Source: a virus
Length of the DNA: 33,560 nucleotides
Direction: 5' to 3' (one strand)
IMG/VR virus record: IMGVR_UViG_3300042905_002620
Coordinates: 1 to 33,560 of that record
The position numbers and the translations under genes are program-made. This document shows, in pieces, positions 632 through 33,560 of this stretch. The notes under the pieces are model-generated. The model ran no database searches and had not been told where the DNA came from. It worked only from the letters and a program-made list of their open reading frames with translations. Every line of letters begins with the position of its first letter. The stretch's first letter is position 1.

Positions 632-638
632 TATTTAG
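632..638 (-). promoter_or_regulatory. Late promoter motif CTAAATA before gp13
   Basis: The minus strand reads CTAAATA 28 bases before the gp13 start, overlapping the stop codon of the preceding gene. CTAAATA and NATAAATA are the late-promoter forms reported for marine T4-like phages. It implies that gp13 and the neck genes beyond the left edge start a new late transcript. Confidence 0.55.
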
Positions 639-1384
639 TTCTCTATCAACTTCCCGTCTCGAGAGGAATACACCAAGTCTGGATCCATATGAGCAAACTT
701 TTCCCAGTTCGGTTCACCCTGCAAAATTCTCTTTCCGATAGATTCTTCGCCAATGTGTTCGATTAAATTTTCCCCGTTTGTTCCCTTGAGTTGAGCAGAA
801 TACATCTGATGGAAGTGATCAAGATATACCATAATCATTCCTTCGTTAATATTAAACCCCCAATACTCTCTGAATGGATAATCTACGATTGATTTTCTAT
901 ACAAACTAAAGATGATAGGAAATGTTTTAGTGTTTTTACTATAATAAAACTTCTCAATTTTCGTATCAGTCTCCTCAATCTTCGGTGGCTCTTCGTGGAA
1001 ATACCATTGCTGTCTTTGCAAAACAACTGATGCCATCTTCTCGTCAGAGTTGAGAACTGTTAATAATTCATCGATATGAATCGGTGATGTGATCAAAACA
1101 TCATCCTCTTGATGAATGATATAGTCATAATCTTGCGTTTTGAGCCATTCAAAAAAGTTACTCCAAGTTACTGATAAACCTTTATTTTCGGTGTTCAACC
1201 ATAAAAGTGTTTTATGAGTTTTCGCGAGCAACTGAAAGATTGAGTCATTTCGAGTTCTTGGGTAATCGTCGACGATAAGGCGAGTAACCTCATGATTTCC
1301 ATAATCTAGATTCTTAAGAGAATCTAGAGTCTTCGTTAGGTATTGCAAACGATTGCAAGAAAATATCACATGTAAAATTTTCAT
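635..1384 (-). CDS. GT2-type (GT-A fold) glycosyltransferase
   Basis: A 249-residue protein likely to transfer a sugar from a nucleotide-sugar donor in the cytoplasm. The N-terminus (MKILHVIFSCNRLQYLTKTLDSL) is the first Rossmann-like strand and helix of GT-A enzymes. LIVDDYPRTRND at about 36-47 fits the nucleotide-binding region. HQEDDV at 91-96 supplies the acidic metal-binding DxD-type motif (E93, D94, D95). A conserved acceptor-side region follows (YWGFNINEGMIM). No membrane segment or signal peptide is visible. It is the last gene of a four-gene cluster; its ATG overlaps the TAA of the upstream oxygenase by one base, which suggests translational coupling. The acceptor is unknown. Fibre proteins are the inferred target from context, but a host-glycan or nucleotide target cannot be excluded. 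Confidence 0.75.
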   Translation of the reverse strand: MKILHVIFSCNRLQYLTKTLDSLKNLDYGNHEVTRLIVDDYPRTRNDSIFQLLAKTHKTLLWLNTENKGLSVTWSNFFEWLKTQDYDYIIHQEDDVLITSPIHIDELLTVLNSDEKMASVVLQRQQWYFHEEPPKIEETDTKIEKFYYSKNTKTFPIIFSLYRKSIVDYPFREYWGFNINEGMIMVYLDHFHQMYSAQLKGTNGENLIEHIGEESIGKRILQGEPNWEKFAHMDPDLVYSSRDGKLIEN

Positions 1385-1941
1385 TAGTATTCTGTGTTGA
1401 AAAAGAAGGTTTGAAATAATCTTCCGTTTTCGAGATTGTTTCCGAAATAGTCCAATGAGGCATGATAAAGGTTTCCGCGATACATCACGATTCGATTATA
1501 TTTGTTTGCAACATAATCGACCATATCCCACTTTGTATAGTCATAGCCATCAAAATGAGGAGCAGTGTTATCTGCTCTGAAATAGTCGCCCGTTTCCTTA
1601 TATCGATACAGAGCAGTTCCAGCAGAGAGAGGCGCATTCGGTGTTAGATAGCACACAGCAGCCCAAGAATTATAACTATCAGCATGAATCCAAGTGCGAT
1701 CTTTCGCAGTGCAAATTTGAAATGCTCCAGTATAGCCAGAATATTCCATCCAATCGGTGATCTGCCCTCCAACATTAAAGATGATTTTTTGAATTGCATC
1801 TTTTAGATCGTCTGGAAGATATGGTTTTGTTCTTACTCCAGGATAATTTCCCGACACCTCAAATGGTTGAGACAATGCATAACTTCGCACACCATCTGGG
1901 TTTTGATAAAAATCGTCAGTAACAATTAAATTTGTTTTCAT
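1384..1941 (-). CDS. DUF6445-like 2OG-Fe(II) oxygenase family protein
   Basis: A 185-residue protein beginning with IVTDDFYQNPDGVRSYAL, the opening typical of DUF6445-like proteins, which share the double-stranded beta-helix fold of 2OG-dependent oxygenases. The expected iron ligands are present: H86-x-D88 in WIHADS, and a distal H160 in LYHAS. R174 in GRLFQTFFF is the likely 2-oxoglutarate binder. YPGVRTKPYLP near 33-43 and CYLTPNAPLSAGTALYRY near 97-114 match the same family pattern. Such enzymes hydroxylate protein side chains or small molecules; the substrate here is not known. It sits between a glycosyltransferase-like gene and a GT2 gene and probably works in the same pathway. No truncation is visible. 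Confidence 0.75.
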   Translation of the reverse strand: MKTNLIVTDDFYQNPDGVRSYALSQPFEVSGNYPGVRTKPYLPDDLKDAIQKIIFNVGGQITDWMEYSGYTGAFQICTAKDRTWIHADSYNSWAAVCYLTPNAPLSAGTALYRYKETGDYFRADNTAPHFDGYDYTKWDMVDYVANKYNRIVMYRGNLYHASLDYFGNNLENGRLFQTFFFNTEY

Positions 1942-1948
1942 AACTCAC

Positions 1949-2701
1949 CTAGTAATACATAAATCGACCAGAAGTCCCATCCCATCCGCAAACTATCCAG
2001 TCTGTTTCAATAACATCTTTTTCATATGGACGAGTAAAGTAATATGACAAAGTTTCAATATCATAATGTTTCATTGGGGCTTGATTTAGCAAATGAATTG
2101 TTGCTTCATTTATATCAATCATTTTATCTAATTGAGTGCCGCCGAATGCATATAACACCGTGCAATATTGATGTATGCGATTGTTATTTTGTTCTGTTCG
2201 ACGATCAATAAATGAATAGTTCCAAGAATCATCCCAGTTGAAATTAAGCGGTCGTTTGAAAAATAATTTGTTTAAATTTTCAACATTAAACAGCGCATCA
2301 TTTAAATGAAAGTAAAAGTATCTTCCGCAAGTTTTAATCACATAATCATATTGTTTTATTTCTTTTCTAAACTTCTTATAGAAGGTATTTAATAACAAAG
2401 ATTCGCATAAACTTTTATTCGGATGCGTATTAACAATTTCAAATGCTTCTTGATCTAATTCTTTTAGTGGTATAAACTCAGTGTTCTTAAAGAAGCGAAA
2501 TGTGTCTTGATATTCTTTATAGATGTCTGATGAATCAACAACAACTATTTTTGCCTCTGGAAATGCAGCTTGTATTGAATTGACAGTAAAGATTGTTTGA
2601 CGAAATCTTTCTTCGCTAGAAAAGATTGTGCGAACAGGGCTATATGTCAATGGCGCATTGCGTGTTTGAATCGATGACCCGACAATAAAAAGATTATTCA
2701 T
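1949..2701 (-). CDS. Glycosyltransferase-like protein, unassigned family
   Basis: A 250-residue protein that I do not recognise with certainty. The N-terminus (NNLFIVGSS, then a helix region and KIVVVDSSD at about 51-59) looks like the start of a GT-A type nucleotide-sugar fold. YDYVIKTCGRYF at 118-129 resembles the 'YDYVIKxRxD' segment of some LPS-type glycosyltransferases, with Lys and Arg conserved but no clear DxD. The C-terminus ends in a distinctive segment, DWIVCGWDGTSGRFMYY. It lies in an operon of glycosyltransferases and an oxygenase, and its start overlaps the end of the GT4 gene by 8 bases. A sugar-transfer role is inferred mainly from context. Confidence 0.5.
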   Translation of the reverse strand: MNNLFIVGSSIQTRNAPLTYSPVRTIFSSEERFRQTIFTVNSIQAAFPEAKIVVVDSSDIYKEYQDTFRFFKNTEFIPLKELDQEAFEIVNTHPNKSLCESLLLNTFYKKFRKEIKQYDYVIKTCGRYFYFHLNDALFNVENLNKLFFKRPLNFNWDDSWNYSFIDRRTEQNNNRIHQYCTVLYAFGGTQLDKMIDINEATIHLLNQAPMKHYDIETLSYYFTRPYEKDVIETDWIVCGWDGTSGRFMYY

Positions 2702-3689
2702 AGAATTTATTCTTTATAACTTTTTCTAGATATCGACGATGTTGATCGTGGATCTCCTCATCAGAGAAATTTAATCCCCATTCTCTACAATCAAATGAAG
2801 CAATCTTATCAATACTCTCAATTGCAGTTAATAGGGATTTAAAATCTCGCACACGATATCCTGTTTGTCCCTCAAGAACAATCTCTGGAAATGCACCCCA
2901 ATCAGTTGTAATTACAGGAGTGCCTGATAGATTAGCCTCAATGATCATATTGCCGAATGGCTCAACATAATGCGTCAAACCAATCAATGCCTTTGCATTT
3001 TTTAATAGATGTTTTCGTTGTTCTGCATCAGCAACACCAAAGACCTCAACATGATCTGGAACTTTCTCATATCCCAATGCTTTGAGCGATCCAGGACCAG
3101 CAATGATAAGTTTTTTACCCATCTTTTCTGTTGCTTGAATTGCAAGATGAATACCTTTCTCTTCGCATACTCGACCCAAAAATAAAAAGTAATCGTCTTT
3201 CTTTTCATTGTACTCAAATTCACTGATTGTAAATGGATTACCAATTACATCATCGAACCAAGAAGGGCTCATGAGCATTCCGCGCTCGCCATAAAACATA
3301 TGCATATTTGCATATGAAGTAAACACACGATATGGCGCAAAGATGCCATTGGCTCTATATCCAATAGAAGGTTCAACTGGTTTGCAGTTTGGATTCATCT
3401 CACATGCGAGTTGATTGTCAACGCCAAAGAAACAAACAATCAAATCACCATCGCTTGCTCTCTTGCGAATTTCTTCGCCAGCAAGTTCATTGAATCGCTT
3501 TATTTCTTTTGGTAATGTTGGAATATCAATATGCTCGCAATCAACTTGCGCGCCTGGAACTCCATAATGAATCATATGGAAATGCGGCGATAAATGTTTG
3601 ATATATTTGTATGCGTGGACAGCAAATGGGTCCACACGATTCATCAACCCTGTTGGATTGCGAGGATTTACCAGTACATGGATTTTCAT
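2694..3689 (-). CDS. GT4-family (GT-B fold) glycosyltransferase
   Basis: A 331-residue protein with the C-terminal half of a GT4 retaining glycosyltransferase. FLFLGRVCEEKGIHLAIQA at about 168-186 holds the Arg and Lys that contact the donor phosphate (R173, K178). KKLIIAGPG follows at 192-200. The EX7E motif is complete (E243 to E251 in EPFGNMIIE), followed by GTPVITTDWGAFPEIV. The N-terminal half is a shorter acceptor-binding Rossmann domain beginning MKIHVLVNPRNP. It is the first gene of the 3689-635 cluster and lies directly behind an ATAAATA late-promoter motif. A weak GAG ribosome-binding site is 8 bases before the ATG. The sugar and acceptor are not visible; modification of the adjacent fibre is an inference. 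Confidence 0.85.
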   Translation of the reverse strand: MKIHVLVNPRNPTGLMNRVDPFAVHAYKYIKHLSPHFHMIHYGVPGAQVDCEHIDIPTLPKEIKRFNELAGEEIRKRASDGDLIVCFFGVDNQLACEMNPNCKPVEPSIGYRANGIFAPYRVFTSYANMHMFYGERGMLMSPSWFDDVIGNPFTISEFEYNEKKDDYFLFLGRVCEEKGIHLAIQATEKMGKKLIIAGPGSLKALGYEKVPDHVEVFGVADAEQRKHLLKNAKALIGLTHYVEPFGNMIIEANLSGTPVITTDWGAFPEIVLEGQTGYRVRDFKSLLTAIESIDKIASFDCREWGLNFSDEEIHDQHRRYLEKVIKNKFYE

Positions 3690-3716: not shown

Positions 3717-3723
3717 TATTTAT
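3717..3723 (-). promoter_or_regulatory. Late promoter motif ATAAATA before the GT4 cluster
   Basis: The minus strand reads gATAAATAg about 28 bases upstream of the GT4 start, overlapping the stop codon of the giant fibre gene. It matches the NATAAATA late consensus. It would give the glycosyltransferase/oxygenase cluster its own late transcript, in phase with fibre synthesis. Confidence 0.6.
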
Positions 3724-6700
3724 CGCGCATCCTTCATCGTCAATGTACCCCAATATGTTGAACCACCATCATAAGTGATGAAGGTCCACAAGTCACGAGA
3801 ATTTGCTGCAGTCGTTGCTGGAGGAATTGATCCACCCGCCCAGTACACTGTATTCGCAAATGTTGGAGAATATCCACCAGTACCATCTTGCATAATCAAC
3901 AATGAGAATTGCTGAGCAGTACCAGAAGATGGAGCATTGATAAAGGTAAATTGAGCACTGGCTGTCATCACAGCGCGGAAGTAATTTGATACTGATAAGT
4001 CGCAAGTATTTGCAGCGTTAACATTCGTATTGGCTTGCAAGAAATCTTTATATGCTTTCAATGTAATAGAAGTTGCGCCACTAATAATATTGTTAGCAGC
4101 ACCATAAGCATTATTTGCCTGAGCATACGCAGAATTTGCTTGGGCATATGCTGCATTTGCTTGACCATAAGCAGTATTTGCTTGGGTTCGTGCAGTGTTT
4201 GCCTGACCATAAGCGTCATTCGCTTGTCCATAAGCAGTATTTGCTTGACCATATGCATTTTGTGCTGTTGTTTGGGCAGTGTTAGCAGCACCATAAGCAT
4301 CATTAGCAGTTGTGCGGGCAGTGTTTGCCTGATTTCTCGCTGTATTGGCTTGAGCATATGCGATTGTTCCATTTGGTTCAAGTACAATGTTACCAACCAT
4401 TCCACTATGAACAGTGCACTGATAAACATAAGTGTTTCCACCAAGTTCATAAGGAACTTTCCAGTATAATGAGCCAGAAACTTTGCCTTGAGCAGAAGAA
4501 CCAGTGCTTACTGTTCCATCAGTTGCAACATGAGTCAGTCCAGTGTCATAGTTTGAACCACCAGATGAAACACGAATCGCGAATGGGTGTCCAGCATTGT
4601 TTAAATTAAATGCAATCGTCTCGCCAGCACGAACATAAAGTGATGGGTTATCAACAGCAGCACCATACTGATCAAACCGATATGCACTTGCGCCGTTGTT
4701 CGTAACATCAAGGCGAGTTACAGCAGGTTGATAATTTGAATTTGCTTGAGCATATGCCAGATTTGCCGTTGTGTTGGCTGTATTCGCAGTGCTATATGCT
4801 GCATTCGCTTGACCGTAAGCAGCGTTGGCTTGTCCATAAGCCGCATTCGCTTGAGCATAACCAGTATTTGCCTGAGTGTAACCAGCATTTGCTTGCGCAT
4901 ACGCATCATTTGCTGTACCACGTGCTGTATTAGCCTGTCCATATGCATCATTGGCTTGTCCGTAAGCAACATTTGCTTGTCCATAAGCACCGTTGGCTTG
5001 AGCATAAGCACCATTTGCTTGAGCATATGCACCGTTTGCGGTATCACGTGCTGTATTGGCTTGATTGCGAGCATTGTTTGCTTGATTATATGAATCAGTC
5101 AAATCAGCAACAACATTTCCCCCACCAAGAATTTCAACACCAGAAACAACTAACACAGGACCATTTGCGCTTAGAACTGCATCACCCAAGAAGATTGATG
5201 AGTTGCTCAAATATAGATCATTGAATCGTTTATCAGCAGTACCAATGTCATATGTAACATTTAGATTTGGTACAATATTTTGAGTGATCAATGATGCAGC
5301 AACATTTAAGTTGCCAGTCATTGTATCACCAGCCTTCAATACACGATTATTAGCAGCATCATAAGCACTATTTGCTTGAGCATATGAACTGTTAGCAGTG
5401 TCTCTAGCAGTGTTTGCTTGTCCATATGCGTCATTTGCTGTGCCGCGAGCGGTATTTGCTTGAGCGTAAGCATTTAATGCATTTGTACCAGAAGTATTAG
5501 CAGCATCATAAGCACTATTTGCTTGACCATATGCTGCATTGGCTTGACCATATGATGCATTGGCTTGTCCATAAGCAGTATTTGCTTGATCTCTTGCAGT
5601 GTTCGCTTGATCTCTTGCAGTGTTCGCTTGGCTATATGCATTTAACGCATTTGTATTTGCAGTATTTGCTGCGCCATACGCATCGTTAGCAGTTCCGCGA
5701 GCAGTGTTAGCCTGATCACGAGCAGAGTTGGCTTGTCCATACGCTGCATTGGCTTGATCATATACAATTGTGCCAGGTGGTTCGATTACAATGTTGCCAA
5801 CCATTCCTGAGTGAATTTGACATTGATAAACATAAGTGTTTCCAAGTAGTTCATATGGAACTTTCCAATATAATGTTCCAGTCACTTTTGCTTGCGCACT
5901 ACCACCAGTAGTTACAGTTCCATCTGTTGCAACGTGAGTGAGTCCAGTGTTGTATAATGCTCCACCATTTGAAACGCGAATCAAGAATGGGTGTCCAGTT
6001 ACATTTAGATTAAATGCAAGTGTTTCACCAGCACGGACATAAAGTGTTGGATCACCACCAGTGTATTGATCAAACAAATAATCAGATGCTCCACTATTCG
6101 TTACATTAAGTCTTGTAACAGCTGGTTGATAATTTGAATTTGCTTGGGCATACGCATCATTGGCAGTACCACGTGCAGTGTTGGCTTGACCATATGCGGC
6201 GTTGGCTTGACCATAAGCAAATGCTGCTCGAGCCATCGCTGTGTTTGCTTCATTATATGCATCATTTGCTGTTGTGCGAGCAGTATTTGCTTGGTTGCGA
6301 GCAGAATTGGCTTGTCCATACGCATCATTGGCTTGACCATATGCTGCATTGGCTTGATCATAAGCAGCACCACCAACTGCAGTGAATGCAATATTTGCAT
6401 TTGAACCATCAGCTGAAACTGCTACAGTAATTGTTGCTGTATTAACAAAGTTCAGAACATTTGCAGTTACAGTTCCAGCACTATTTGCTGTTACAAAAGT
6501 TGAGTTTCCTTGTGGTCCTTGTGGACCAGCAACACCTTGTGGACCCTGTGGTCCTTGAGGTCCTTGTGGACCCTGTGGACCTGTATCACCAGGAGAACCT
6601 GTTGCACCAGCAAGATTCACTGCCCAAGAAGAGTATGTGCCACTTCCAGTTGACGCAGTTGAAGTGAAGACTAATGTTCCGTTACCAGAATAATAAGCAT

Positions 6701-8909
6701 CTACAGTGCCTTCCATAAAGTTGCTGGCATTATTTGCAACTTTAATATTTTGAGCAACAGTGTATGCTAGACCAGTTTCAACTGTCATGTTGAATGATCC
6801 TGAACTTGCGATAGTTTCAGAATCACTACTTGTTGTGGCGTATCTGTCACCAACTGCACCCTGTGGACCCTGCGGACCTTGCGGACCAGTGGCACCATTC
6901 GATCCCGCAGGACCTTGAGGACCTTGTGGACCCGCAACATTTGATGCAGCACCCTGTGGACCTTGTGGTCCCTGTGGTCCTTGTGTTCCCTGTGGACCCT
7001 GTGGACCTTGAGGACCAATATCACCAGTCGCACCAGTAATACCTTGAGCACCTTGCGGTCCTTGTGGACCTTGTGGACCTGATGGACCAGTTACTGATGC
7101 ACCGCTTGGTCCTTGTGGTCCTTGAGGACCAGTGTCGCCTGTAACGCCAGGTGTGCCTTGTGTTCCCTGTGGACCCTGTGGACCTTGAGGACCCTGTGGT
7201 CCTTGCGGACCAGTGTCACCAGTTGCACCTTGAGTTCCTTGTAAACCTTGAGCACCTTGCGGTCCTTGTGGACCTTGAGGACCTTGTGGACCCGCAACGC
7301 CTTGTGGACCCTGTGGTCCTTGTGGACCTTCAACACCTTGTGGTCCTTGTGGACCAATAACACCCTGTGGTCCTTGTGGACCAGTATTGCCAGTCGCACC
7401 TTGTGGACCTTGAGGACCAGTTGAACCTTGAGGACCTTGTGGACCTTGAGGACCAGTCGCGCCTTGTGGACCTTGTGGACCAGTTTCACCAGTTGAGCCT
7501 TGAGGACCTTGTGGTCCTTGTGGACCTTGTGGACCAACTCCACCTTGTGGTCCTTGTGGTCCTTGTGGACCAACTCCACCTTGTGGTCCTTGTGGTCCTT
7601 GTGGACCAACTCCACCTTGTGGTCCTTGTGGACCTTGTGGACCTTGTGGACCTTGTGGACCAAGTTCTCCAGGTGTGCCACCAAGATTGATAGACCAAGA
7701 TGTGTATGTACCAGAACCAGTGATTGATGTCACATTAGCAACCATCTGGCCATTTGCGCTATTGTAGGAAGTAACTGTACCTTCCATGAAGTTAGAGACA
7801 GTATTTGCGATTTTAATATCTTGACTTACTGAATATGCTAATCCTGTAGCAACTACAAACGTTTGTGCGCCAGTGGCAATGGTTAGTGATGTTGAACTGG
7901 TTGTTGAATAAATGTCACCTGCAGTTCCTTGTGGACCCTGAGGACCCTGCGGTCCTTGCGGACCAAGAACACCTTGCGGTCCTTGTGGACCTTGTGGACC
8001 AACAACACCCTGCGGTCCTTGTGGACCAGCATTTCCTTGTGCGCCTTGAGGACCTTGTGGACCTTGTGGACCAATTGCGCCAGTTGAACCTTGAGCACCC
8101 TGTGGTCCTTGTGGTCCTATCACACCCTGTGGACCCTGTGGACCAATAACACCCTGTGGACCCTGCGGACCAGTGTTACCCTGTGCGCCTTGAGGACCTT
8201 GTGGTCCTGTCACACCTTGTGGACCTTGAGGACCAGTTGAACCTTGCGCGCCTTGTGGACCTTGTGGTCCCTGTGGACCTTGAGGACCGACAACACCCTG
8301 TGGACCTTGAGGTCCTTGTGGACCTGCTGCACCCTGTGGACCTTGCGGACCAGTTGTACCAACTACACCAGCAACACCCTGATCACCTTGTGGACCAGAT
8401 GGTCCTTGTGGACCTTGTGGACCAGTATTACCAGCAGAACCCTGTGGACCTTGAGGACCTGTTACGCTTGCGCCTGATGGACCTTGAGGTCCTTGTGGAC
8501 CTTGCGGACCAGTATTGCCAGCAGCACCTTGAGGACCTTGAGGACCAGTTGATCCAGCAGAACCCTGTGGACCTTGTGGACCAGTATTACCAGCAGAACC
8601 CTGTGGACCTTGAGGACCAGTCGCGCCTTGTGGACCTTGTGGACCTTGCGGACCAGTATTGCCAGCAGCACCTTGAGGACCTTGAGGACCAGTTGATCCA
8701 GCAGAACCCTGTGGACCTTGTGGACCTGTTACGCTTGCGCCTGATGGACCTTGAGGTCCTTGAGGACCAGTCGCGCCTTGTGGACCTTGTGGACCTTGTG
8801 GACCACCTGCAGGACCAGCCGCACCAGAGGGACCAGATGGTCCTTGTGGACCTTGTGGACCTGTTAAACCTTGTGAACCACGACCAGTGGAGACGCGAAG
8901 TATAGTCAT
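3720..8909 (-). CDS. Giant collagen-like, cupredoxin-bearing tail fibre protein
   Basis: A 1729-residue modular fibre. Approximate order: collagen-like Gly-X-Y tract 13-329, mostly GPQ; beta domain 331-412; collagen 413-686; a second copy of that beta domain 687-768; short collagen to about 800; a beta segment; alanine-rich coiled coil of AYxQANxA heptads 848-925; cupredoxin-like domain 930-1048; coiled coil to 1188; [10 protein letters not shown] beta module 1189-1270; coiled coil to 1390; second cupredoxin-like domain 1396-1514; coiled coil to 1607; and a C-terminal tip with [14 protein letters not shown] and [13 protein letters not shown], typical of marine phage fibre tips. The cupredoxin ligands are H973, C1030, H1033, M1036 and H1441, C1498, H1501, M1504. 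It is expected to be a trimeric fibre outside the virion. Its ATG overlaps the TGA of the upstream adaptor (ATGA). It has no S74-type chaperone at its own end. Confidence 0.85.
4368..4724 (-). other. Encoded cupredoxin-like domain 2
   Basis: This encodes residues about 1396-1514 of the giant fibre. [13 protein letters not shown] is a typical cupredoxin strand. GHPF supplies H1441. YQCTVHSGM supplies C1498, H1501 and M1504 with the C-x2-H-x2-M spacing of amicyanin. The His-to-Cys distance (57 residues) equals that in domain 1. Confidence 0.65.
5766..6122 (-). other. Encoded cupredoxin-like domain 1
   Basis: This encodes residues about 930-1048 of the giant fibre. [13 protein letters not shown] is followed by GHPF (H973), and [17 protein letters not shown] gives C1030, H1033 and M1036. 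All four type-1 copper ligands are present. The domain is flanked on both sides by coiled-coil repeats and is highly similar to domain 2, so the pair arose by internal duplication. Confidence 0.65.
6509..8873 (-). repeat. Collagen-like Gly-Pro-Gln tracts of the giant fibre gene
   Basis: Three tracts (about 7923-8873, 6852-7673 and 6509-6600) encode uninterrupted Gly-X-Y triplets, chiefly GPQ. Occasional GAT, GAA, GVI, GNT and GAS triplets, and ASVT interruptions, break them up. Synonymous codons vary between triplets, so DNA identity is lower than protein identity. A cleaner 36-base tandem unit, encoding 12 residues ([12 protein letters not shown]), occurs about three times at 7535-7630. The tracts are separated by two copies of an 82-residue beta domain at 7674-7919 and 6606-6851. 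Confidence 0.9.
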
Positions 8910-9241
8910 TTCGTAACCTGCGGATTAACTGTGATAATGCCTTCAACAAGGCGAGTCGTAACATTTACATTATCAAGTTGCTTCACATCAAACAAATAGC
9001 GACCTGCCTTAATATTAGAGGTTGTCGCAGCGTTTAAACTAAAACTTACGTTTCCATTTGCTGCATTAATAATGGTAACGCTTAAATTTGCGGTTGAACT
9101 TATAGAATAATATGATTTTCGTATTGAAGACGAAAAGGTGAAATTTGTAACGTTGATTGCAACACCATCATCATTGCTCAAGTCTAGATCGTAATTGAAA
9201 TCAGTTCCCTGATCTAGTTCCAGTTCTACAAACTGAGCCAT
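8906..9241 (-). CDS. Beta-rich fibre adaptor-like structural protein
   Basis: A 111-residue beta-rich protein. The N-terminus ([32 protein letters not shown]) and the C-terminus ([12 protein letters not shown]...[17 protein letters not shown]) match the pattern of small proteins found before fibre genes in T4-like marine phages. It resembles the BppU N-terminal (Ig-like) type of baseplate attachment domain. It probably links the giant collagen fibre to the baseplate; this is inferred from position and pattern. It is the first gene of a two-gene unit behind an ATAAATA late motif. It has an AGGA ribosome-binding site and overlaps the fibre start by ATGA. There are no cysteines, signal peptide or membrane segments. 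Confidence 0.65.
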
Positions 9242-9293: not shown

Positions 9294-9824
9294 TTATGTT
9301 ATTGGTTCAACATAAACAACAGCAAGTTTTCCTGTTGTGGAAATGATAACATCTTTTTCTTCGTTAAAGGAAACGCAGAACACTTTTTTATCAGTATAGA
9401 GTCTTCCATCTACAGTATAACTCGAACCGTAAAAAACAAGGTGAGAGTTAGATTTCACCGTTTTTGTTATTGTATCGTTAGTGAATTTATGGACTGTAGT
9501 GGTGAATGGAATCGGTTCTTCGGTGTGAAAGTCGTGTAGATCGACTCTTAAAAATCGAGTCGATGGAGTAACAGTGAATTCTACAGGAACACCATATTTC
9601 CAAGAATCAATATAATTTGTTATTTCAGATTCTGGATAAGGAGATTCGATTAATTGCGCGATTTCTCCTTGATATTGAATTGTAACCGACCCTTCGATAA
9701 GAAAATAATGATATTTGGGAAATAGTTGTTGATTTAACACCCCATCGTCGAACATAATGTTGCAGCCGCCGATATAACGACACTCGCTACCGTCGAACAG
9801 CCTAGCATTAATTCTTGGTTCCAT
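9294..9824 (-). CDS. Beta-rich protein of unknown function, last gene of enzyme operon
   Basis: A 176-residue protein that I do not recognise. It is predicted to be mostly beta strand. It begins MEPRINARLFDGSECRYIGG. A central segment YHYFLIEGSVTIQYQGE resembles a cupin-like strand pair, but no clear His metal cluster is visible; HDFH occurs near residue 117. There is no signal peptide or membrane helix. Its start overlaps the end of the GlcNAc-transferase-like gene by one base (TAATG), so the two are probably translated together. It could be a small cupin-type accessory protein of the modification pathway or a structural protein; the sequence does not decide. Confidence 0.6.
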   Translation of the reverse strand: MEPRINARLFDGSECRYIGGCNIMFDDGVLNQQLFPKYHYFLIEGSVTIQYQGEIAQLIESPYPESEITNYIDSWKYGVPVEFTVTPSTRFLRVDLHDFHTEEPIPFTTTVHKFTNDTITKTVKSNSHLVFYGSSYTVDGRLYTDKKVFCVSFNEEKDVIISTTGKLAVVYVEPIT

Positions 9825-10786
9825 TAATCACTCCTATCAGGTATCTCCCAGTCGTTAACGACGCCAGGATATGAGGAAATGCTTCTCGAGATTGCTCTTT
9901 CCTCTAATTTTCTATTTATATAATCAACTCCAGTAATTTTTCGATATTCTTCCAGTTTATCTTCAGGAATGGAGTAAATATAATCAACTAATTCTTTTTG
10001 AGAACGAGAAATCTTTCTTTGAAGTTCTTCTTGTGTCGAAACAGCATTAATTGTTTGTTTTGTTTCATGCTGATTAGATCGCAGATAATGATAAACTTTA
10101 ATTTTTCTATGATGGAAGATTCTATACCCACCTAGAAAGGTATCGAGAGACATAATCTGTTCTTCGCCCTCGAAGAAAATTTTAGTGTTATATCCAACAT
10201 CTTTAATCCATTTAACAGGAGCAAAGAAGTTTCCTGCGCATATATGAATAGATGGAGTTACAACATTTGTAGCGGGAATCCAAGGACCATGAGCGTGAAG
10301 ACGAAGATTTTTATCAAATTGAAAATATCCTAGTTTAACTGTAATATCATTTGTCATTTTGTGAAGAGTGATTCTATCGCCGTCTAAATCGTAATTTTTG
10401 GTTCCAGCAGTCAAAACAACTTTATCAAAATTTGCAACTTGACATGCTTGATTATAATCTAAAACTAACTGATGATCCCAATCTTTATCAAAAATCATAT
10501 GAGAATCAATTTGATATTGAAATTCTTCATCGTATATTTGACATGAATTGATGTAGCGAGCCCACACAACTCCATCAGAATATTGCGGATCGATTCTTTT
10601 ATATCGAATTTTTCTATTTTGTAACAGTTCTGGTTTTTTAGTTAATAAACTATCCTCAAGCCTAGTTTGCTCGAAAATGCCGTAGGTTATTTCATTTCTA
10701 CCAGACTCTGTTTCAAGTAGACTTTCAATTGTTGGCAATAAAAGTCTATCTCTATATGAGCATAAATTTACAAATATCTTTTTCAT
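9824..10786 (-). CDS. GT60/PF11397-like GlcNAc transferase
   Basis: A 320-residue protein with the layout of the GlcNAc-transferase family PF11397 (CAZy GT60): FVNLCSYRDRLLLPTIESLL at 5-24 (SYRD at 10-13), YGIFEQ at 35-40, DGVVWARY at 71-78, and YQIDSHMIFDKDWD at 91-104. D94-S-H96 stands in for the DxD metal site, as in this family. ICAGNFFAP, FFEGEEQIMSLDTFLGGY and HYLRS come later, again in family order. The founding member, Dictyostelium Skp1 GnT1, attaches GlcNAc to hydroxyproline; other members act on other acceptors. Here it is encoded in one operon with a 2OG oxygenase and beside collagen-like fibres, which suggests a protein acceptor. That is inference. It starts inside the previous gene (ATGA overlap). 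Confidence 0.8.
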   Translation of the reverse strand: MKKIFVNLCSYRDRLLLPTIESLLETESGRNEITYGIFEQTRLEDSLLTKKPELLQNRKIRYKRIDPQYSDGVVWARYINSCQIYDEEFQYQIDSHMIFDKDWDHQLVLDYNQACQVANFDKVVLTAGTKNYDLDGDRITLHKMTNDITVKLGYFQFDKNLRLHAHGPWIPATNVVTPSIHICAGNFFAPVKWIKDVGYNTKIFFEGEEQIMSLDTFLGGYRIFHHRKIKVYHYLRSNQHETKQTINAVSTQEELQRKISRSQKELVDYIYSIPEDKLEEYRKITGVDYINRKLEERAISRSISSYPGVVNDWEIPDRSD

Positions 10787-11532
10787 TCTTTATAATTTTT
10801 TCTTATAGAAAACTTTTTACGAATCATATAATATTTTCTATAGAAATTTAATTCATTAAACCATTTGACGCAGTGATCGTAATCATTCTTCACATCAGTT
10901 ATTGGTCCATAACTTGCCTTGATATTTTTGCTCGTTATGAAAGGAATAAAATGAATTAGAGGATCACCAGCATTAATAGTTATCTCACACTTTCTTCTTG
11001 GGCTGCAAATAAAGTTAATCGTCGTGAATCCATTGTAATCTACAATTCCAGGATACATGTACAAATCTTCGAAGAAATTATTATGATAGATTGCTGGCAG
11101 TAAGAGACCTGAGATGTTTCCCTTTCCATGAACTTTCCACGGTCCACCAAAATTGAAAACGACTAGAGGAATATCGTCATATACTTTAAACGCACCATCA
11201 ATTATGGTAGGATCCATAGGTTTTGGTTGCATAAATGGAGTGTGTCTTCGTTTTTGCTGATCCTCTCCTTTAGACCCAGTAAAAGCAACAACACCTGCTT
11301 TATTTGCTTTGATGTGAAAGTTGCTCCATGCTGGAATGATATAACCATGTCGAGCATAATCATACATTCCAGGGCATTGAGGGAAATTATATTTTTCGTA
11401 CTTCGCTTCTTGATATGTTTTAAGTGGCTTCAATTCTTTTGCAAGAATTGGTGGATAATGGTTATACGCAGCCTTTGTAGAGTCAAGAAATTGAATATCA
11501 TCTTGTTCTTTTTTAAAGAAATCGAAAATCAT
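10783..11532 (-). CDS. Unknown protein, related to its upstream neighbour
   Basis: A 249-residue soluble protein of unknown function. Two segments align by eye with the preceding gene product: CPGMYDYARHGYIIPAWSNF at 53-72, then HIKAN, against CLPLLDAMSYGFTIPLCGDV, then HIRTN; and ITINAGDPLIHFIPF against HIPAGTPLVTVIPI. Between them lies a beta-rich region with GNISGLLLPAIYHNN. The two look like diverged paralogues with a cupin- or jelly-roll-like core. The C-terminus is basic (YMIRKKFSIRKNYKE). It overlaps its neighbours by 4 bases on each side, so it is translationally coupled to the GT60-like transferase downstream. A role in making or delivering the modification is possible but not shown. 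Confidence 0.65.
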   Translation of the reverse strand: MIFDFFKKEQDDIQFLDSTKAAYNHYPPILAKELKPLKTYQEAKYEKYNFPQCPGMYDYARHGYIIPAWSNFHIKANKAGVVAFTGSKGEDQQKRRHTPFMQPKPMDPTIIDGAFKVYDDIPLVVFNFGGPWKVHGKGNISGLLLPAIYHNNFFEDLYMYPGIVDYNGFTTINFICSPRRKCEITINAGDPLIHFIPFITSKNIKASYGPITDVKNDYDHCVKWFNELNFYRKYYMIRKKFSIRKNYKE

Positions 11533-12269
11533 TTTTTCTCCCTCAATTCATAAGTATAATGATGAGTTCTAATATTTTGTATTCGCTGCGTTTTATTGAT
11601 TTGATTAAATTCTTTTTTTGTAATTTTTCTAACGTTTGGTTTTTTATCAAAGGCATGACGTTTAATTGGAATGACAGTTACCAAAGGCGTGCCTGCTGGA
11701 ATATGCTCATCTGCATCAAACACATTCCAAAGAGCAGGAAAATTGACTTCTTTAGGATAATGATCAGTATCTACCATAGCACTTAAACAAGTGAATGGTG
11801 TGTTATGGTGATTTAACGGATTTAGGAACAACGCTGACCAACCTGGTGCTGTTTTTACGACCCAATAGTTTATAAACTTTAAAGGGTTTCCATGATTCGG
11901 TTTTATCGCGCTTGGTCCACCAACCTGATCTGCTACATGATATTCGCAAACGTTTAATCCAAGAGGATTTGTAATTTCAAATTGACTATTATTGTGATTA
12001 GTTCTAATATGAACATCACCACAAAGTGGAATTGTAAATCCGTATGACATTGCGTCCAATAGTGGTAAACATCGTTTTGCGGTCATTGTACGATTGCCAA
12101 ATGTATCTCTGTTATCTTCTTCGCCATAAATTGGTGGAAGATCTTTGAACCACTCAGGTAAATGTTTAACTGCTGGTTTTGGTTCTGGTATTACACCTAC
12201 TAAATCTGGATGACAATAAAATTCAATAATATCATTTTTCCAGAATTTAAGTTTCTTCAAATTTACCAT
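11529..12269 (-). CDS. Unknown protein, DUF6065-like, paired with downstream paralogue
   Basis: A protein of about 246 residues from the chosen start. It opens with IIEFYCHPDLVGVIPEPKPA and KHLPEWFKDLPP, a pattern I associate loosely with DUF6065-like phage proteins; I am not sure of that family name. It then has CLPLLDAMSYGFTIP with DVHIRTN, a beta-rich centre (APGWSALFLNPLNHHNTPF), and IPAGTPLVTVIPIKRH. I chose the ATG at 12269 because it overlaps the oxygenase stop by 7 bases and has GGGA upstream. An ATG at 12293 would add 8 residues but has no visible ribosome-binding site. Scattered His and Cys residues could bind metal, but no defined catalytic motif is visible. It is coupled to a 2OG oxygenase and a GT60-like transferase. 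Confidence 0.65.
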   Translation of the reverse strand: MVNLKKLKFWKNDIIEFYCHPDLVGVIPEPKPAVKHLPEWFKDLPPIYGEEDNRDTFGNRTMTAKRCLPLLDAMSYGFTIPLCGDVHIRTNHNNSQFEITNPLGLNVCEYHVADQVGGPSAIKPNHGNPLKFINYWVVKTAPGWSALFLNPLNHHNTPFTCLSAMVDTDHYPKEVNFPALWNVFDADEHIPAGTPLVTVIPIKRHAFDKKPNVRKITKKEFNQINKTQRIQNIRTHHYTYELREKK

Positions 12270-12865
12270 GAATTTTTTCCCATCACCCAACATACTAATG
12301 ATTTTCGAATACCGCTGGTGACAGGTCTGACACGATGGGGCATATAAGAAGCAAAAAATACAATATCACCAGCGTTTGGTTTTAAAACCACAGGATCATC
12401 AACACGACCATTCATAACACACTCGAACTCACCACCCTCATACTTCGAAGGATCCGTCAACAGGATAGTTGCGCTAATTTTTCTTTCATATGGAGTGCTG
12501 AGATTACTTGCATCAACATGCCAATCATAATGCTGTTTATCTTTTGCATTATATTTGGTATATTGGAAATTGTCGAATGAGTCGACATCAAACATGAAGT
12601 GATCATAGTTAATGGATGAAACAACGTTAGAGAATTTGGAATATAACCAATCCGAGTTCTGATCATGATACAACCACATGATCTCGCTATTTCTAACGTT
12701 TTTATCGACTTTCCCAGATTTATGTTCGCTGCCAACAGCACCCCTTTGAAATTTTTGCAAATCTTCAAAGTCAAGAATTCGTTCTACTTCATCTGGCGTG
12801 AAAACTTGGCTTGCAACACAAAAACGATTAAGGATTCTAGAATATTGTTGCACAGGATATGGCAT
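12263..12865 (-). CDS. 2OG-Fe(II) oxygenase, PKHD/prolyl-hydroxylase type
   Basis: A 200-residue oxygenase that should couple 2-oxoglutarate decarboxylation to hydroxylation of a substrate. The iron triad is complete: H116-x-D118 in DWHVDAS and distal H177 in MPHRVRPV. R187 in GIRKSLVCW is the 2-oxoglutarate binder. RKISATILLTDPSKYEGGEF at 128-147, the GDIVFF strand and HRVRPVT are characteristic of the PKHD/PiuC-type Fe2OG family, common in marine T4-like phages. The substrate is unknown; proline in fibre proteins is the inferred candidate. It is the first gene of a five-gene overlapping operon. A strong GAGG site lies 6 bases before the ATG. A sigma70-like promoter, rather than the late motif, lies upstream. 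Confidence 0.88.
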   Translation of the reverse strand: MPYPVQQYSRILNRFCVASQVFTPDEVERILDFEDLQKFQRGAVGSEHKSGKVDKNVRNSEIMWLYHDQNSDWLYSKFSNVVSSINYDHFMFDVDSFDNFQYTKYNAKDKQHYDWHVDASNLSTPYERKISATILLTDPSKYEGGEFECVMNGRVDDPVVLKPNAGDIVFFASYMPHRVRPVTSGIRKSLVCWVMGKNSW

Positions 12866-12925: not shown

Positions 12926-14098
12926 TTATTCAATATCTACTATAATTTGTCCACCTGGAGGGACCGCCACTGGATAGTTAGCGTTGTCTGGGAAAGACCA
13001 ATAAACAACTTCTGTTGCACCAATTGTTGGTGCAACCTGACCAACACCATCAACAACATTTCCTCCAGGGAAGTAAACGCCAAGAACAGTGGCTGGTGTT
13101 CCTGGGTTTCCTGGAACGTAAACGTTTGCTGGTCTGTTTGCTTCTGGTTGATTTGCAATTGGGTACACCACATTATAATTGGTTGCCCATGCAGTTGCAG
13201 GGCGAGAAGCCTCTGGTCTATTTGCAATTGGATAAACTACGTTATAGTTAGTTGTCCAAGCAGTTATAGGTCTAGATGCTTCTGGTTGATTTGCAATTGG
13301 ATATGCAATGTTATAGTTTGTGTTGTAATTAATATTCCAAGCAGAAACTGGTTGATTGGCGATAGGATAATCAACATAAACGTTATAGTTTGTGGTGTAG
13401 TTAATATTCCATGCAGACGGATTTCCTGGTGTCGTAGTACATTGATATTCAACATAATACACAAATTGCTTATATTCAACACCTTGAGTAAATCCAACAT
13501 ACACGGTAGATGGTGATGGACATCCACTACCACCACCTACACCAAAGTTTTGGTATAAGAAGTTGGCTTGATTTTGTTTTGTTTGATTGTTGAACAGATC
13601 GTACAAATAAACAGAAACAGAATTAAAGTTGCTTGATGGTGGATTATTTGCGTTTACAGGGCGACCAGTTTCAGGCTGATTTGCAACTGGATAATCAACG
13701 TAAACATTATAATTCGTATTCCATGCACTGGCTGGTCGACCAGATTCTGGTTGATTAGCAATTGGGTACGCGATGTTATAATTGGTATTATACAAAATAG
13801 TATATGCAGTCGCTGGTTGGTTTGCGATTGGATACGCTACGTTATAGTTTGTATTATACAGAATCGTGAACGTTGTTCCTGGCTGATTTGCGATTGGATA
13901 AACAACGTTGTAATTGGTGTTATAATTGATGCTATAGACTGTTGCGACAGCATCATTTCCTGAACCTGCACGTCCTCGAACTGTGGCTCTATAACGACCA
14001 TAAGGAATTGTGGTGCTTGATGGGCTATTAAACGTCTGAGATCTTGGTCTAGACGATAACGGGATCCATGTTTTATTTAAATCTGGAGTCTTTGCCAT
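12926..14098 (-). CDS. YNTNYN/YPIANQP repeat protein, probable virion structural protein
   Basis: A 390-residue protein of no family I recognise. The N-terminal 50 residues (WIPLSSRPRSQTF, then IPYGRYRATVRGRAG) look like a small beta domain of phage fibre proteins. Eight repeats of about 20-24 residues follow in two groups (about 57-148 and 229-324), each built as TNYN(V/I)-xYP(I/V)AN(Q/R)P, some extended by E-x-x-RP-x-x-A-W. Between the groups, at about 157-222, lies a different segment with two cysteines (C193, C220). The C-terminus (TEVVYWSFPDNANYPVAVPPGG) is beta-rich. It has its own perfect TATAAATA and lies among fibre genes, so a secreted or virion-surface role is likely. Asn/Tyr richness suggests a beta-solenoid or fibrous fold. 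Confidence 0.65.
   Translation of the reverse strand: MAKTPDLNKTWIPLSSRPRSQTFNSPSSTTIPYGRYRATVRGRAGSGNDAVATVYSINYNTNYNVVYPIANQPGTTFTILYNTNYNVAYPIANQPATAYTILYNTNYNIAYPIANQPESGRPASAWNTNYNVYVDYPVANQPETGRPVNANNPPSSNFNSVSVYLYDLFNNQTKQNQANFLYQNFGVGGGSGCPSPSTVYVGFTQGVEYKQFVYYVEYQCTTTPGNPSAWNINYTTNYNVYVDYPIANQPVSAWNINYNTNYNIAYPIANQPEASRPITAWTTNYNVVYPIANRPEASRPATAWATNYNVVYPIANQPEANRPANVYVPGNPGTPATVLGVYFPGGNVVDGVGQVAPTIGATEVVYWSFPDNANYPVAVPPGGQIIVDIE
13100..13930 (-). repeat. Tandem repeats encoding TNYNVxYPIANQP units
   Basis: Eight in-frame copies of a 60-72 base unit lie in two blocks (about 13655-13930 and 13125-13412). The core GTTTATCCAATCGCAAATCA and its variants recur with synonymous changes. 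They all lie within the 390-aa gene and keep its frame, so they are protein repeats, not a CRISPR or a site array. Confidence 0.75.
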
Positions 14099-32516: not shown

Positions 32517-33560
32517 TTAAACTTTTGACGGTCTAAAAATACCAATCAATGTGCCGTCTCCAGGAGAAACGTATCCATTTTGCCAAGATATACTGACGTC
32601 GCCTTGAGATGGATTGATTTTCGGAGTGCCGAAGGAACTTCTCTTTTTCTGATTTCCACCAACAAACGAGAGTGCTCCATTGTTATTCGAATACACGAAA
32701 CTGACGTGACTATATCTCCAGAGTGCGATGTCTCCTGGCTGAGCCTGTCTCGGATCAAGAATTTGTGTAACTCTATAATCACTTAATCGATCTCGAACGT
32801 CGAAGGCTCGAGCAGTTTGCACATATCGATATCCATTTTGTTTCAATCCATAGTTCACGAAACCCATACACCATGAAGTTTGGTCTGTATTCCATGGCGA
32901 TTTTGTTCCAAATCCAAGATCTTTCCAAATTCCTAAGATGTTTGGATTCGAATCGGCTCCAGCCATTCCTGTTTCTAACCAGTATCCATCTGAATTGGTT
33001 TTAGAGAGTTGCTCATCGAGCCAAGACTTGAGGTCTGATCCATCTGTGAGTGTAGGATTTAGTGGATTTAATAAACTTTCACCGACTCCACTTGTATCTG
33101 GAGTTCCAATATAATTTGGTTTTACATCACCGCGATCTGCATCTTCGTTATAGAATGCATTTGGATTCTTGATATATTCGATGACTTGATTATTAATTTC
33201 CTCTGCACGATCAACAGGAATTCGAACGCTCGGACTCTTTTCGAAGAATACTGGAGGGTCATTATATTCCAATACTTCGAGCGGATCACCAAGTCCAGTT
33301 GGAGATGCAGGTATCGCAGGACCTGCAGGGATTCCAGGAATTGGAACCCCTGTAATCGGTGATGGTGGGAATGGAGACATAGTTTGCAACGGAGCAACGA
33401 GTTTAGCACCAATACCCACAACAGTTCCCTGTAAATTGAGTAGTCCAGCGGATGTAAGTGAAACAACTGCTCCGTTCAATCCTACGGTCGCTGCTGTCAT
33501 TGCAGCGGTTCCAGCAGCCAGAACATTAAATTGAGCACCTGCTTGAATACTTACTGCACC
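32517..33560 (-). CDS. 5: gp5-like hub with C-terminal CHAP/NlpC-type peptidase, 5' end cut by window
   Basis: The frame is open to the right edge, so the ATG at 33500 is probably not the true start. The codons before it read VSIQAGAQFNVLAAGTAA and continue smoothly into VGLNGAVVSLTSAGLLNLQG, a regular beta pattern like the gp5 triple-beta-helix needle. A proline-rich linker (about 41-74 from M33500) follows. The C-terminal domain is a cysteine peptidase of the TIGR02594/CHAP-like type: C211 in TSWCMGFVNYGLKQNGY, H265 in YSHVSFVY, and GDIALW before it. It would cut peptidoglycan during infection. gp25 follows, as expected for gp5 in this group. The gp5 name is inferred from position and the beta-helix. 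Confidence 0.7.
   Translation of the reverse strand, partial: GAVSIQAGAQFNVLAAGTAAMTAATVGLNGAVVSLTSAGLLNLQGTVVGIGAKLVAPLQTMSPFPPSPITGVPIPGIPAGPAIPASPTGLGDPLEVLEYNDPPVFFEKSPSVRIPVDRAEEINNQVIEYIKNPNAFYNEDADRGDVKPNYIGTPDTSGVGESLLNPLNPTLTDGSDLKSWLDEQLSKTNSDGYWLETGMAGADSNPNILGIWKDLGFGTKSPWNTDQTSWCMGFVNYGLKQNGYRYVQTARAFDVRDRLSDYRVTQILDPRQAQPGDIALWRYSHVSFVYSNNNGALSFVGGNQKKRSSFGTPKINPSQGDVSISWQNGYVSPGDGTLIGIFRPSKV

Follow-up and report, generated by a model that had tools for sequence, protein, structure and literature searches.

The window analyzed here is the complete IMG/VR virus record IMGVR_UViG_3300042905_002620 (33,560 bases), which reads as the baseplate and fiber region of a T4-like phage; its source is a water-borne virus of bacteria. 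On the minus strand, the overlapping genes between positions 12865 and 9824 on balance probably form a cassette that post-translationally modifies the Tyr/Asn/Pro-rich domain of a repetitive protein, REP, encoded directly upstream. This cassette comprises OX (12263–12865), a PKHD-type Fe(II)/2-oxoglutarate (2OG) oxygenase, followed by Da (11529–12293), a DUF6065 protein with a predicted dUTPase-like fold, Db (10783–11532), a divergent paralogue of Da, and a PF11397 (GT60-like) glycosyltransferase (9824–10786). REP, the proposed substrate, is a 390-amino acid protein on the same strand (12926–14098) with low-complexity TNYNVVYPIANQP-type repeats.

In the mechanism that we propose, OX would hydroxylate side chains in the REP repeats, with proline as the target by family precedent and asparagine as a further possibility. 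The GT60-like enzyme, where present, would add a HexNAc-type sugar to the resulting or to a native hydroxyl. Since bacterial DUF6065 is found with an Asn-repeat protein but without the other enzymes nearby, the Da/Db pair would bind the Asn-containing repeats or modify them itself. For an exposed adhesin, the modification may bring protection, greater stiffness, or diversity. An earlier annotation of this DNA (the original prediction) had assigned the same enzymes to the prolines of a neighboring collagen-like fiber and had overlooked REP.

Linkage of REP with the oxygenase cassette

We scanned viral contigs with the transferase and DUF6065, which yielded 140 loci in 72 non-redundant groups, and counted the position of REP over 43 non-redundant viral OX–DUF6065 cassettes. 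The loci are kin, so that their counts do not represent independent trials. REP is the most constant neighbor of the cassette: it immediately precedes OX in 35 of the 43 cassettes and lies two to three genes upstream in 3; of the remaining cassettes, 3/43 begin at a contig end and 2/43 are without REP. This linkage is observed directly, and the gene order REP–OX–Da–Db–(GT60) recurs across loci, with REP–OX–Da–Db maintained even among divergent phages whose Da proteins share as little as about 40% identity. A DNA motif scan for the N-terminal start of REP, which is independent of the enzymes, retrieved Tyr/Asn/Pro REPs followed by an oxygenase at a distance of 13–102 nt and then by DUF6065, and added two lineages that the enzyme scans had missed there (L154 and L148/L189). 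Co-occurrence, a check suggested in the original prediction, links the cassette to REP; Pro-rich collagen, the partner proposed there, lies near only about half of the loci.

The repeats of REP are flanked by a conserved start (TIPYGR..V.GRAGSG) and a conserved end (VLGVYFPGG...VPPGGQI). Between these, the repeats differ widely among loci. All of them nevertheless contain Tyr, Asn, and Pro, and the Tyr-Asn dipeptide is enriched in 39 of 44 REPs. REP has no significant match in Pfam or PHROGs. Its structural model is confident only at the two ends, which together form one β domain, and of low confidence in the repeats. A fold search with this model gave no significant matches in the PDB; the termini weakly resemble a mycobacteriophage tail tip (PDB code 9d93, Z 4.4) and a cyanophage fiber (PDB code 7ypx, Z 4.2), both below the trustworthy level, and matches in BFVD are likewise weak (E 0.2–0.9). 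As no match is significant, a role of REP in the virion rests on its location and on the weak resemblance to tail tip and fiber proteins, and REP is probably a virion protein (fiber or tip).

In three loci (L006 5793–8006, L016 1380–3653, and L018 1153–3480), a REP paralogue ends in a Hint/intein-like domain (CCFVAGTLVTM...), and the gene that follows supplies the missing C-terminal end of REP. This paralogue is possibly a split or self-processing fiber. In L040 (7644–8333), REP and OX are separated by a gene of the sulfotransferase family (PF03567), and L033 (8688–9392) looks similar, which may represent a further decoration.

Enzymes of the cassette and the predicted fold of DUF6065

The original prediction had described OX as a PKHD-type oxygenase with H116, D118, H177, and R187 as key residues, and this assignment holds. 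OX matches PF13640 (2OG-FeII_Oxy_3) with an E value of 1.2e-16 (61.9 bits against a cut-off of 27), and in the alignment H116-x-D118, H177, and R187 are conserved as the HxD..H iron triad and the 2OG-binding arginine. The metal ligands are complete in 50 of 55 OX sequences, and HxD..H is kept in every OX that precedes DUF6065. OX belongs to phrog_61 and falls below the NCBIfam YbiX equivalog cut-off (44.9 versus 399 bits; best sibling, 65.2 versus 143 bits). By family precedent, OX may act as a peptidyl-prolyl hydroxylase.

The transferase was likewise correctly recognized as PF11397/GT60-like. It matches this family with an E value of 1.2e-29 (104.3 bits against a cut-off of 21), and the SYRD, DSH, and GVVWARY motifs are all present and intact. 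In the D94-S-H96 motif, D94 and H96 are invariant among 23 diverse homologues (down to 23% identity), and E208 and E209 are nearly so. A sequence search detected no solved structural relative of the transferase, and no GT60-like gene was found at E 1e-5 among 50,697 records of isolate phages. Use of UDP-N-acetylglucosamine on hydroxyproline is predicted by analogy. In L102 (2022–3689), a GT60-like domain is part of a longer open reading frame of 556 amino acids that lies before the oxygenase and not after Db.

Five loci carry a second oxygenase copy directly before GT60, in which the distal iron histidine is replaced by alanine or serine (L006 9429–10001, L016 5204–5776, L018 5127–5699, L019 3393–3965, and L089 9429–10001). 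These five oxygenase–GT60 pairs themselves directly follow a REP-type protein, and the same loci also carry an intact OX a few genes away. In the window and in L004, the oxygenase paired with GT60 is intact. The second oxygenase would more likely be a binding partner dependent on the nearby intact OX than an enzyme that works with two ligands.

The five open reading frames from OX to the gene downstream of the transferase are translationally coupled, in line with the overlapping five-gene operon originally described. Da/Db and Db/transferase share ATGA-type overlaps and the transferase and the following gene a TAATG, whereas Da has a likelier true start at 12269 that overlaps the stop of OX. 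The fifth gene (9294–9824, minus strand) encodes a β-rich protein of 176 amino acids without an assigned function. It is confined to a subset of the GT60-bearing cassettes and would be a lineage extra to the cassette.

Da and Db are related to each other, both matching phrog_7084 (E 4.6e-51 for Da and 2.5e-15 for Db). Da scores above the curated cut-off of DUF6065 (PF19541; 34.7 versus 26.6 bits), whereas Db has no Pfam match. The predicted fold of Da (mean predicted local distance difference test score, 89.9) is dUTPase-like: dUTPases are its best matches (Foldseek E 2e-4, Z 10.5) and superpose with root mean square deviations of 3.3–4.8 over 121–128 residues, which places Da in the β-clip fold of dUTPases. 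When alignments were inspected by eye, the VDTDxY stretch of Da (VDxDxY) resembled dUTPase motif 3 and IPAGTPLV (IPAGTP) resembled motif 4, whereas PxNH takes the place of motif 2 (RSS) and the P-loop-like motif 5 was not recognizable. Of the five motifs of a dUTPase enzyme, only the motif 3-like and motif 4-like stretches were found. Because motif 2 is not retained, Da is probably not a dUTPase enzyme.

DUF6065 homologues (35–38% identity) also occur in the haloarchaeal tailed viruses HF1 and HSTV-2 (L141 and L142), where they adjoin baseplate-region genes and no oxygenase is annotated next to them. In Cyanophage P-TIM40 (L144 83–11410), a DUF6065-like gene lies among tail-fiber assembly genes in a run that also holds two tryptophan halogenases, two 2OG oxygenases, and a cupin-like gene; this run is a candidate for another fiber-modification island. 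In L190 (5965–7306), DUF6065 and a PKHD oxygenase are found with a structural gene of phage type inside the chromosome of a Dehalococcoidia metagenome-assembled genome; this stretch is probably a provirus or a mis-binned phage.

Asn-repeat partners and competing explanations

Bacterial and archaeal genomes were scanned for DUF6065, which gave 168 relatives; the best 80 of these, mostly from Rhizobiales, were analyzed. In 71 of these 80 bacterial loci, a secreted-looking protein with (Asn-Ser-Ser-Ser)n or (Asn-Thr-Ser-Ser)n repeats, hereafter (NSSS)n, is encoded within 1 kb of DUF6065. All 12 whole genomes examined have the DNA pattern of the repeat at a single locus, in each case within about 1.6 kb of DUF6065; one of the 12 genomes holds a second, more canonical DUF6065 without the (NSSS)n repeat. 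OX-type and GT60-type genes were not found near the bacterial DUF6065 loci, and PF11397 occurs in 1 of the 12 DUF6065-bearing genomes, where it is unlinked. Extracytoplasmic function (ECF) sigma and anti-sigma genes are often close to the rhizobial and burkholderial DUF6065–(NSSS)n loci (L192, L208, L239, L228, and others, at about 5000–7300).

Because bacterial DUF6065 is tied to (NSSS)n without OX or GT60 nearby, what DUF6065 has in common between phages and bacteria is an Asn-rich low-complexity partner, in which Pro is optional. The same association indicates that Da and Db, which the original prediction described as accessory parts of the pathway, are not incidental. Tentatively, DUF6065 might be a dUTPase-fold family that has turned into a dedicated modifier of low-complexity proteins with periodic Asn, for example by deamidation or by another reaction directed at Asn. 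In Proteobacteria it would act by itself on secreted (NSSS)n, and in phages it would act together with the oxygenase and the GT60-like transferase on repeat fibers.

Several observations weigh against a cassette that modifies REP. Gene linkage falls short of proof of substrate, and REP itself is without a significant family or fold match. GT60 is absent from 10 of the 43 cassettes within the stretches examined, and a strict oxygenase-then-GT60 coupling is doubtful in the five loci with second oxygenases because the distal iron histidine is replaced there. In addition, (NSSS)n contains no Pro, so that a Pro target fails to explain DUF6065.

Alternatively, Da, Db, and perhaps OX could be chaperones of REP folding or assembly rather than enzymes, with trimeric dUTPase-like proteins holding the sticky repeats until assembly and with GT60 as a lineage extra. 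A dUTPase-like fold that has not retained motif 2, bacterial loci in which DUF6065 has a repeat protein but no other enzymes beside it, and GT60-paired oxygenases without an iron histidine would all fit such a role, but no OX that adjoins DUF6065 has lost a metal ligand, and Da conserves Asp and Tyr residues that resemble dUTPase motif 3. We regard the chaperone role as unlikely.

The substrate named in the original prediction is the collagen-like (Gly-Pro-Gln) fiber of 1729 amino acids (3720–8909, minus strand), the prolines of which would be hydroxylated by OX and capped with N-acetylglucosamine (GlcNAc) by the GT60-like enzyme. This explanation, which we consider very improbable, draws on the position of the collagen gene two or three genes downstream in the window and its close relatives and on the precedent of hydroxyproline–GlcNAc in Skp1 (PMC3515798). 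Yet Pro-rich collagen, defined by at least 12 Pro triplets, accompanies just 18 of the 33 GT60-bearing cassettes, and the collagen repeat is absent from records of 125, 165, and 108 kb that carry the cassette with GT60, although these records are metagenomic and may be incomplete. The collagens of L036 and L087 consist of Gly-Ala-Gln (GAQ) and are almost Pro-free. In classical collagen, hydroxylation falls on the Y position. Of 200 triplets in the window fiber, 123 have Pro at X and just 3 have it at Y, unlike a collagen-type prolyl 4-hydroxylase substrate. Moreover, collagen goes with a different set of genes, cassette B (635–3689, minus strand), which is present in 14 of 15 cases with Pro-rich collagen versus 2 of 20 without (Fisher p 7e-7, uncorrected for relatedness). 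Finally, a phage collagen is reported to be stable without hydroxyproline (PMC3368898). Gly-Pro-Gln collagen as an obligatory substrate was rejected on the grounds of co-occurrence, the nearly Pro-free GAQ collagens, and the few Y-position prolines. What stands of the original prediction is the principle: hydroxylation followed by glycosylation of a virion protein is reasonable because a cassette of oxygenase and GT60-like enzyme with a fiber-type protein is conserved in many phages, and its constant partner is REP.

It is also highly doubtful that the substrates are small molecules, host glycans, or nucleic acid and that the enzymes adjoin fiber genes by chance or for co-expression: a DNA-repair role has been proposed for cyanophage 2OG oxygenases (PMC9146016) and GT60-like genes are also found in phage neighborhoods without DUF6065, but the preserved order REP–OX–Da–Db across divergent phages argues against it.

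Cassette B consists of a GT4 transferase (3689–2694), a 250-amino acid protein (2701–1949), DUF6445 (1941–1384), and a GT2 transferase (1384–635), all on the minus strand. DUF6445, labeled minor coat protein in PHROGs, carries an HxD..H..R pattern (H86-x-D88, H160, and R174) that is invariant among its relatives and suggests a 2OG oxygenase. A sequence comparison of DUF6445 with solved structures returned only short matches to angiotensin-converting enzymes (best E 0.0025 over 40 residues), which were judged to be due to chance. By eye, the collagen-like fiber contains two cupredoxin-like stretches (HPF..IRVS) with a type-1 copper-like Cys-x2-His-x2-Met motif. Between the fiber and the 176-amino acid gene lies a gene for a 111-amino acid fiber-associated protein (8906–9241, minus strand; phrog_3304, L-shaped tail fiber assembly), which is the conserved next gene in the lineage of the window. 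Elsewhere, within the baseplate cluster, a likely CHAP-type cysteine peptidase (32517–33500; SWCMGFVNY) was noted by eye.

Relation to known systems and significance

The 2OG oxygenases of marine phages, which number in the thousands (PMC12774648), are often classed with auxiliary metabolic or DNA-repair genes; many of those in phrog_61 resemble EGLN3 by fold (PMC12774648). OX belongs to this group, but the genes around it suggest a protein of the virion as its substrate. In Dictyostelium, PhyA hydroxylates Skp1, and Gnt1, a GT60 enzyme, then acts on the hydroxylated protein (PMC3515798). The phage cassette similarly combines a 2OG oxygenase with a PF11397-type transferase, so that the transferase could cap a hydroxyl introduced by the oxygenase. 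In contrast to the Skp1 pathway, the gene-linked partner in the phage is a repetitive protein, two dUTPase-fold proteins intervene, and OX is PKHD/YbiX-like by sequence. Da shares its fold and the motif 3-like and motif 4-like stretches with the dUTPase superfamily but differs in PxNH at motif 2 and in its Asn-repeat genetic partner.

A class of Gly-rich fiber or tip proteins of T4-like cyanophages resembles REP in its termini (TFNAPGN at the N terminus and YPV.VAPGG at the C terminus) and is also flanked by 2OG oxygenases. Their repeats are Gly/Asn-Pro-Gly and not Tyr-Asn, and neither DUF6065 nor GT60 lies beside them in the stretches examined. In six loci of T4-like phages (L157, L159, L167, L172, L186, and L187), such Gly-rich fiber-tip-like proteins are found beside at least two 2OG oxygenases. 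We know of no oxygenase or DUF6065 partner in the virion glycosylation of mycobacteriophages, which also differs in its substrates. Phage-encoded glycosyltransferases have been proposed to decorate virion proteins such as those of the mycobacteriophage capsid and tail (PMC11256854). The literature searched contained no paper that names DUF6065 and none that combines cyanophage, oxygenase, tail fiber, glycosyltransferase, and collagen.

The strict link to REP gives this group of 2OG oxygenases a testable job, namely the post-translational modification of the virion surface. Likewise, the pairing of DUF6065 with Asn-repeat proteins in phages and rhizobia provides a concrete candidate substrate for a family of unknown function.

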